DNA of 19,398 nucleotides. Source: Puniceicoccales bacterium. GTDB taxonomy: Bacteria; Verrucomicrobiota; Verrucomicrobiia; Opitutales; LL51. The translations under genes were made by a program, and so were the position numbers. The stretch lies in NCBI GenBank assembly GCA_031268545.1, contig JAIRXD010000052.1:1-19398 (forward strand). Direction: 5' to 3'. This document shows positions 17,505 through 19,377 of the stretch, one piece after another (position 1 is the first letter of the stretch; each line of letters opens with the position of its first letter). The notes below the pieces were generated by a model. That model worked only from the letters and a program-made list of their open reading frames with translations. It searched no databases and was not told the origin of the DNA.

Positions 17505-17969
17505 GTGCGACGGTTGGTGGAGATAGCTGATGCCTGTACAAATTTTGTGCTAAATCGAAGCCAGGTTGTTGCCCTATTTTGGTGCCTTGACGACTTCGAT
17601 GGTTATAATATTCCCGGGGGAGATCTTTCCATTGCCTTTGTAGACCATGGGGTCATGACTTCTATTCATGGAAAATTTTTACAGGATCCGACGCCCACCG
17701 ATGTAATAACCTTCGATGGTGATAGTTCTATGGATTTTGCTGGAGAAATAATTGTCTGTCCGGATTATGGCTTGGATCGTTGCAAGGAATTTGGTACGAC
17801 GCTGGACTATGAAATATTACTCTATTTAGTTCATGGATATCTTCATCTAGCTGGCCTGGATGATGTTAATGGCGAAGCCGTCCCTAAGATGAGGGCAGCC
17901 GAAACAAAGTGCCTATCCCATTTAAATTCCATCATGGATAAGGGTTGGAATTTGATAAAATACGCCTGA
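17505..17969 (+). CDS. ybeY: Endoribonuclease / rRNA maturation factor YbeY, variant active site
   Basis: YbeY is a metal-dependent protein involved in 16S rRNA 3' processing and ribosome quality control. The 154-residue frame starts with GTG at 17505 and has the family core PTPTDVITFDGDSSMDFAGEII and the metal motif HGYLHLAGLDD. The metal motif keeps His110 and His114, but the third ligand, normally His in HGxLHLxGxDH, is Asp120. The conserved Arg before the PTDV segment (Arg59 in E. coli) is Leu59. From memory Bacteroidota YbeY proteins show the same pair of changes, so this may be a lineage form rather than a loss of function. It sits eight bases after rpmG, in keeping with a ribosomal role. 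Confidence 0.92.
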   Translation: MRRLVEIADACTNFVLNRSQVVALFWCLDDFDGYNIPGGDLSIAFVDHGVMTSIHGKFLQDPTPTDVITFDGDSSMDFAGEIIVCPDYGLDRCKEFGTTLDYEILLYLVHGYLHLAGLDDVNGEAVPKMRAAETKCLSHLNSIMDKGWNLIKYA

Positions 17970-17971
17970 AG

Positions 17972-18010
17972 ATAAAAAATACCAAGTTGCCTGGCCAAAG
18001 GATTTTTTAT
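17972..18010 (+). terminator. Possible bidirectional terminator between converging genes
   Basis: Between the ybeY stop and the stop of the diadenylate cyclase gene, ATAAAAAATACC (17972-17983) can pair with GGATTTTTTAT (18000-18010) with one bulged A. This gives an A/T stem closed by two G-C pairs, and on either strand it ends in a T-run. The loop of 16 bases is long and the G-C content of the stem is low, so its strength is doubtful. The position between convergent genes supports the call. Confidence 0.4.
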
Positions 18011-19377
18011 TATATGGTGGAGGCTGATAGGCTTTGTTCGGACAACGCGGTCATTTTGCCATCTCGGAACAGGGTGATCTGATTGGTGCTCTCCGATACG
18101 GTGATCGCAATGCTTTCGGAAATCAATGAAATAATTGCCGCAGCCGCGTGGCGAGTCCCTAGGCCACCGGGCATCTGTACATTGTGGTTATTTGGTGCCT
18201 GTATCATGGTGCCGGCCGATTCTATAACTCCATCTCCGCGAACAATAAATGCGCCATCTATGGTTGAAAATTCCTTCACCGTTTCGACCATGAATGGGTT
18301 GAGAATATTCCGCTCTTCTTCTTTGTATCCAAAAAATGGATTTAGGACCAGTTGCTTCGTGAATGGCCTTATTTTTTCTATATCTCCTAGGACAAATAAA
18401 CATCCAACTGGTTTTCCCTCACGCCCTTCAACGGAGATATCGCCGACAATGGCCAGTAAACGCTCCAAAACCTCAGGCCTAATGCCATCCTGTAGGAACA
18501 TTTTACCATTGGTTGCGGATACGGATGAACTGAATTCTTTGGCAATGTCTATCACCGATATGGTATCAAATAGATTGCTTTTGGTTATTCCGGAAATGCA
18601 GCATATTTTTTCATCTCCCTGGATCAATGCCCTGGTCAATCCTATTATTATGGCGCTCCTAAGTTGGGATAGCCTGTGGGCTGAAAATGACTGGACGAAG
18701 ATCACATTGTTCGAAGTACTTGGATCCGAAAGTGCATTGGCTTTCTGGGTGACAAATAGGGTCTTTAATCCACCAAACTTATCAGCACAGTCATAGCAGT
18801 CTCCGACTATAACATCATCGAAAATCATCACTGCCGAGCATTTGGCCCCATAGGCGATCTGCTTAGCTTTGTCAAAGATCAGACTATTGAATTTAGTTTC
18901 GTCTGGATTTTCGCTGGTCTTATAGCCTACGAATATTTTATTTATTTTTGACCGAAATGATACCATCGAAGGTTGACTTTTCAATTCATTTATTATCGAC
19001 GGATCCTGTAATATTCTCGCCAGCGTTGATAGGACATTCAGATATAAATCTCCACCCTTGGCCGATAGCAGCAAAAATAGTACTTTTATTTCCTTATGAT
19101 CCGGGGAATTGCTATTGGGTAACCCATCTTGACAGTAACCAACAGCAAAGATGTAGGGCCTGGGTATGGCCAGCTTTACATGGGGCATTGCTATGCCGTT
19201 GCCAAGGTAGGTCGGTATTGTTTTTTCCGATTCAAGAATGAGCTGAAGAATCTCTTGATTACTACCAGTGGTTTTGGGAAGATGACAAACTTCCAAAAGC
19301 TCCACGATAGCATCCTCGAATGTTTTGCTTTTGATGTCAATAATTCTGTCTTTTGCTAAAAATTTGTGTAGCCGCAT
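18010..19377 (-). CDS. PTS EIIA - pyruvate-kinase-C-like - diadenylate cyclase fusion
   Basis: A 455-residue soluble protein in three parts. Residues 1-148 form a fructose/nitrogen-type PTS EIIA domain with the phosphoacceptor His66 in GIAMPHVK. Residues about 165-300 (KQIAYGAKCSAVMIFDD; IIIGLTRALIQGDEKICCISG) resemble the pyruvate-kinase C-terminal-like domain found before the cyclase in archaeal DacZ/CdaZ enzymes. Residues about 303-442 are a DisA_N diadenylate cyclase domain with EGREGKPVGCLFVLGD, the DGA motif (374-376) and GTRH (407-410). It should condense two ATP to c-di-AMP. The second Arg of the usual RHR motif is Ala411. The likely sense is that phosphorylation of His66 adjusts cyclase output; this is inferred. 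The gene stands alone, convergent with ybeY. Confidence 0.9.
   Translation of the reverse strand: MRLHKFLAKDRIIDIKSKTFEDAIVELLEVCHLPKTTGSNQEILQLILESEKTIPTYLGNGIAMPHVKLAIPRPYIFAVGYCQDGLPNSNSPDHKEIKVLFLLLSAKGGDLYLNVLSTLARILQDPSIINELKSQPSMVSFRSKINKIFVGYKTSENPDETKFNSLIFDKAKQIAYGAKCSAVMIFDDVIVGDCYDCADKFGGLKTLFVTQKANALSDPSTSNNVIFVQSFSAHRLSQLRSAIIIGLTRALIQGDEKICCISGITKSNLFDTISVIDIAKEFSSSVSATNGKMFLQDGIRPEVLERLLAIVGDISVEGREGKPVGCLFVLGDIEKIRPFTKQLVLNPFFGYKEEERNILNPFMVETVKEFSTIDGAFIVRGDGVIESAGTMIQAPNNHNVQMPGGLGTRHAAAAIISLISESIAITVSESTNQITLFRDGKMTALSEQSLSASTI

Follow-up and report, generated by a model that had tools for sequence, protein, structure and literature searches.

An EIIA–PK_C-like–diadenylate cyclase fusion of Puniceicoccales: a plausible PTS input in relatives, probably disconnected in one lineage

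Introduction

The class names of the diadenylate cyclases (DACs) are said to go back to Corrigan and Grundling in 2013. In the sections of the Haloferax DacZ paper on which we draw (PMC6741144), a pyruvate-kinase C-terminal-like (PK_C-like) fold is described in DacZ-type cyclases, a regulatory role for this domain is merely suggested, and Lacunisphaera, Puniceicoccaceae, Coraliomargarita, Opitutae and a Verrucomicrobia bacterium are listed as DacD. Going by the taxa in that list, the cyclase described here, encoded in a stretch of 19,398 nucleotides from a Puniceicoccales bacterium (hereafter the window), would belong to class DacD. The EIIA/PK_C-like/DAC architecture is not new, since it is common through the order and proteins of the same taxa have already been published as DacD; no published study of an EIIA–cyclase fusion was found in the openly licensed PMC literature.

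Comparison with the closest systems shows features shared with each of them. The listed DacD members come from fitting taxa, and in a draw of 141 genomes from the taxonomic class a DAC match was found in 22 of the 23 that belong to the window's order, each time in a frame of 450–487 aa; what sets the window protein apart from DacD is Ser50 and Lys68, along with a genome in which EI and HPr were not detected. Archaeal DacZ/CdaZ enzymes likewise carry the PK_C fold immediately before the DAC domain, a feature of their superfamily, but the window protein adds an N-terminal EIIA, and its match to the NCBIfam DacZ equivalog (NF041371; residues 237–442, E 2.4e-28) reaches 99.2 bits against a cut-off of 430. 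The EIIA part has the fold and the acceptor His of EIIA-Ntr (PtsN) but is fused to a cyclase, scores 44 bits against 138.7 for the PtsN equivalog, and has Ser50, Lys68 and, in place of an aligned His, Tyr112. CdaA and DisA have the DAC fold and the DGA motif in common with the window protein, whereas the domains attached to it (PK_C-like and EIIA) are different, and it reads RHA at the place of the RHR motif of CdaA.

Domain architecture of the fusion

The three-domain fusion in the window gene (Table 1) is real, as confirmed by domain matches and predicted folds: the EIIA-Ntr, PK_C-like and DAC folds are all supported, the DAC domain above its curated cut-off. The initial annotation, made from the letters alone, had proposed exactly this arrangement, and its view of the EIIA as regulatory in type is supported by the EIIA-Ntr-like fold. 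For the middle domain alone, a sequence-profile search returned no solved relative at E < 0.2, unlike a fold search, which found one. Residues Asp374 and Gly375 of the DGA motif are present in 125/125 alignment rows having a residue there and Ala376 in 111; Arg409 and His410 are similarly present in 125/125, and the position after them is variable, being Ala in 99 of 127 rows and Ser, Thr, Met, Val or others elsewhere.

Table 1. Position of the fusion gene, its domains and key residues, and its neighbour in the window. Rows are those of the cyclase alignment; EI+ denotes genomes with a detected EI.
Feature	Position	Strand	Size or basis
Whole EIIA–PK_C-like–diadenylate cyclase fusion gene	18010..19377	(-)	455 aa
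EIIA domain, EIIA-Ntr (PtsN) fold, residues 1–152	18922..19377	(-)	
Ser50; Arg in 88/94 rows from EI+ genomes	19228..19230	(-)	aligned with Arg of REK/RER in IIA-Mtl and PtsN
His66, putative phospho-acceptor	19180..19182	(-)	alignment
Lys68; Arg in 91/94 rows from EI+ genomes	19174..19176	(-)	aligned with PtsN Arg, not IIA-Mtl
Tyr112; Tyr in 94/94 rows from EI+ genomes	19042..19044	(-)	aligned with His of IIA-Mtl and PtsN
Pyruvate-kinase C-terminal-like domain (DacZ_P), residues 158–283	18529..18906	(-)	
Diadenylate cyclase (DAC) domain, residues 295–449	18031..18495	(-)	
DGA motif, residues 374–376	18250..18258	(-)	residue conservation
Arg409-His410-Ala411, RHR in CdaA enzymes	18145..18153	(-)	CdaA alignments
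ybeY, convergent downstream neighbour, outside the system	17505..17969	(+)	Pfam PF02130, E 1e-20

At the other end of the window, an open-ended frame with repeated motifs (3–293) matched no Pfam family at E 0.01. In the sister genome G001, the cyclase gene has a SIS-domain gene immediately upstream, encoded on its own strand (L010:798-1427); the corresponding position in the window is removed by the contig end.

Distribution of the fusion

A protein search yielded 3304 homologues among 7994 scored candidates, and EIIA and DAC domains occurred together in all of the 120 listed among the 3304. Among the best 80 of at least 556 named relatives, all are Verrucomicrobiota records except one labelled Pseudomonadales. 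Sampling of 141 genomes of the window's order gave a cyclase match in 125, made up of 117 full fusions (two of them split between contigs), seven without the EIIA part (in G187, G239 and G266 its absence is deduced from a missing N-terminal match) and one different, shorter cyclase (G191). The same fusion was present in 7/7 genomes of family f10, which belongs to another order, with the His kept in all seven. Presence in 117/141 and 7/7 genomes rules out chance or an assembly artefact as the origin of the fusion.

Other cyclases were met as well. Larger DAC frames elsewhere in the taxonomic class (G054, G029, G128, G105 and G065) are not this fusion, since the window protein matched none of three of them and the other two weakly (E 3e-6 and 6e-6). 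The 504-aa frame of G105, one of the three, has an EI gene at a distance of about 2.4 kb, in the same orientation on its contig (G105:C9:28617-32111, L251). Some genomes of the window's order have a shorter second cyclase frame of 300–322 aa (L246, L247, L135 and G232:C860); L246, the one checked, consists of DacZ_P and DAC, with the EIIA absent.

The c-di-AMP system around the cyclase

The window's own genome (84% complete) contains a single DAC match, and the window gene is the only diadenylate cyclase found in it. When this genome was searched for partners of the proposed circuit, a PgpH-type phosphodiesterase gene (PF07698) was found, and EI and HPr were not. Across the order, the PgpH-type gene is present in 124/141 genomes, comprising 118 of the 125 that gave a cyclase match and 6 of the 16 that did not (Fisher p 2e-7, kinship ignored). 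Six f4 genomes (G111, G206, G227, G246, G256 and G263) have neither a cyclase match nor PgpH, although they retain EI, HPr and HPr kinase; they have apparently lost c-di-AMP signalling as a whole. At three f68 loci (L129, L130 and L133) an EIIA-less cyclase gene adjoins a PgpH-type gene on the same strand, as read directly in L129 and from the match places in the others.

Phosphate donors in the window's lineage and its relatives

EI (PF05524) was detected in 138/141 genomes drawn from the class, including 125/125 of those with completeness of 90% or more and contamination of 5% or less, and in 107/141 genomes drawn from the order. It was found neither in the window's own 84% complete genome nor in any of the 14 genomes of its family, five of which pass the same quality thresholds. 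HPr (PF00381) is present in 115/141 order genomes and 6/7 genomes of the sister genus, and HPr kinase in 113/141 by E-value (111 over the cut-off) and 4/7; both were looked for and not found in the window's own genome or in the sister genome G001, which is 95% complete. To judge from the assemblies, the window's lineage has apparently lost EI, HPr and HPr kinase, and the EI and HPr of a working PTS phospho-relay were not found in the 84% of the genome that is available.

Further insight came from HPr itself. In the sister genus (L139–L144) His15 and the Ser46 region are kept and Arg17 is lost in 6/6 proteins read (usual HPr numbering), and the motif HARP is retained in the 14 HPr proteins read from elsewhere. 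The sister-genus protein is possibly a Crh-like HPr with a regulatory role only. That EI was merely missed in the family is ruled out by the 0/14 count together with the loss of Arg17. By contrast, four larger genomes scored as lacking EI (G163, G165, G180 and G232) have an intact EIIA site and an intact HPr, so their EI was probably missed.

In four of the seven sister-genus genomes, in all of which EI was undetected, an HPr kinase gene follows the cyclase gene immediately downstream, encoded on its strand (L013:2286-3257, L015, G004:C34 and G008:C43); it was read in G013 and G002, and that of G013 was confirmed by Pfam. Two f68 genomes (G200 and G250) have EI and HPr and gave no match to the cyclase.

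The acceptor site of the EIIA

Alignment with IIA-Mtl and PtsN supports His66 as the putative acceptor that the initial annotation had pointed out. By the same alignment, residues 50 and 68 presumably lie beside it, and Tyr112 occupies the position of a His of IIA-Mtl and PtsN, presumably their second active-site His. The window protein reads S50, H66 and K68, against R50, H66 and R68 in relatives with EI. The set R50-E51-H66-R68 is intact in 80/94 cyclase rows from EI+ genomes and in 0/19 EIIA-bearing rows of four small-genome families without EI (f1, f54, f68 and f69); seven further rows lack the EIIA part (four in f67, three in f68). The damage differs by lineage: the window genus has SEHK in 2/2 genomes, as do P0003 and P0004, its sister genus REYR, f54 HEHR, KEHR, KEHH or REYC, and f68 QEHK. 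His66 itself is kept throughout the window genus, also in P0002–P0004, and in 4/5 f54 rows. Two families with EI break the pattern, His66 being replaced by Tyr in 5/5 rows of f51 and by Ser or Cys in 4/4 rows of f4. The f51 change (L093–L096 and L102), which occurred though EI, HPr and HPr kinase are kept, is the same as that in the window's sister genus.

Four His losses were placed on EI- branches (length 5.2–5.8) and two on EI+ branches (23.6–24.2), a rate ratio of 8–9 (p 0.011–0.016). These rates, and the counts of first damage, come from a 121-row tree that leaves out, besides three fragment rows, G187, G191 and the fragment of G163; in both, f1, f54, f67, f68 and f69 were treated as EI-, EI was assumed present in the four doubtful larger genomes, and the loss in f69, which groups with f4 on this tree, was counted among the EI+ losses. 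With first damage of any kind taken once for each clade, p was 0.04 or 1.0 depending on stem assignment, and an independent-pairs test, on a tree omitting three fragment rows of 127, had four usable pairs, on starred branches, and was not significant. The correlation between EI absence and damage to the EIIA site is suggestive, resting on few independent events and broken by f51 and f4.

Despite its altered site, the EIIA of the window lineage does not look dead. Between the window gene and that of G001, dN/dS was 0.063 for the EIIA (bootstrap 0.031–0.125), 0.050 for the PK_C-like domain and 0.009 for the DAC domain, rough values as dS is saturated at about 1.6. The rate of the EIIA divided by that of the DAC domain is 3.4 in the window genus and 3.5 in its sister genus, compared with 1.2–3.7 in ten families with mostly intact sites, 5.6 in f54 and 8.6 in f69. 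In the window genus the EIIA does not clearly evolve faster than in families with EI. It remains under constraint there and so probably has a role independent of phosphate.

The cyclase as sole PTS_EIIA_2 match

In 72 genomes the fusion was taken as the only PTS_EIIA_2 match, a single match in a fusion-bearing genome being assumed to be the fusion; the count covers the PTS_EIIA_2 family alone. EI and HPr are present in 49 of these, out of 102 genomes with both donors, and His66 is kept in 47 of the 49. This is the best reason for regarding the cyclase EIIA as a real PTS target in the relatives. In two f51 genomes (G176 and G202) the only PTS_EIIA_2 match is the EIIA bearing Tyr.

Discussion

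Our reading is that the window protein still works as a c-di-AMP synthase, its activity judged from conserved residues, and that its EIIA has become disconnected from the PTS and is yet conserved. The idea that PTS phosphorylation of His66 controls c-di-AMP gains indirect support for relatives owning EI and HPr, from the intact sites and from the cyclase as sole PTS_EIIA_2 match, and is plausible there; for the window organism it is probably wrong, the coupling being probably broken in view of the family without detected EI, the HPr and HPr kinase not found in the window's own genome or in G001, and the changes R50S and R68K. The joint reading, a PTS switch on the cyclase in relatives with EI and HPr and a disconnected but conserved EIIA in the window lineage, is given a probability of about 0.6. 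In such relatives, phosphate from PEP would most likely reach His66 by way of EI and HPr, and the phosphorylation state of this residue would act on the cyclase via the PK_C-like domain. After the apparent loss of EI, HPr and HPr kinase in the window lineage, the EIIA, changed at positions 50 and 68, would probably no longer accept phosphate; under purifying selection it would persist in a structural or protein-binding role, with the cyclase probably set by the PK_C-like domain and substrate.

Other explanations have to be weighed against this reading. The EIIA of the whole family may never have been a phospho-acceptor and may serve as a dimerisation or docking module with the His kept for folding, as Tyr in place of the conserved IIA-Mtl/PtsN His in 94/94 EI+ rows and the loss of His66 in two families with EI would suggest. 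The retention of all four site residues in 80 of those 94 rows, the cyclase EIIA as the only PTS_EIIA_2 match in nearly half of the genomes with both donors, and the change of different site residues in different EI- lineages speak against this, and we consider it unlikely. A switch outside the PTS, with His66 of the window genus phosphorylated by another donor or binding a metabolite, would agree with the purifying selection on the EIIA and with a His conserved where EI is not detectable; the changes at the aligned residues 50 and 68 count against it, and we know of no non-PTS phosphate donor for an EIIA of this fold, which makes this version quite improbable.

It is less probable still that EI and HPr are encoded in the missing part of the window's genome, phosphorylate His66 and so set c-di-AMP synthesis. 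His66 is conserved in the genus, including P0002–P0004, and 16% of the genome is wanting, but the absence of EI from all 14 family genomes, the failure to find HPr and HPr kinase in the more complete G001, and Ser50 and Lys68 in the site are difficult to reconcile with an intact relay. That the window protein has ceased to be an active cyclase, for which the Ala after RH instead of the CdaA Arg could be cited, is hardly credible: this position varies throughout the family whereas Asp374, Gly375, Arg409 and His410 do not, the DAC domain is the most constrained of the three, and a PgpH-type gene is present in the genome.

Returning to the preferred reading of a PTS switch dismantled in the window lineage, a wider picture can be offered tentatively, at somewhat less than even odds. 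Much of the order would have an EI/HPr relay with the cyclase as its only PTS_EIIA_2 acceptor, linking PEP supply to c-di-AMP, and a second, metabolite input would enter at the PK_C-like domain. Small-genome descendants would have taken this line apart piece by piece and differently in each lineage, the window genus representing a stage where the donors have disappeared and half of the site with them, while the domain itself persists.

For cyclases of the PK_C-like type, the sequence comparison points to the PTS as a candidate input. A matched set of enzymes is at hand whose EIIA sites are intact, damaged or absent, which makes the coupling testable in vitro. The window lineage also cautions that a conserved catalytic His is insufficient for claiming phosphorylation where the genome is without a donor. 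Potassium balance is reported to be acted on both by unphosphorylated EIIA-Ntr and by c-di-AMP (PMC11808508, PMC7900238). The coupling, if true, would join these two systems, EIIA-Ntr and c-di-AMP, in their action on potassium balance.
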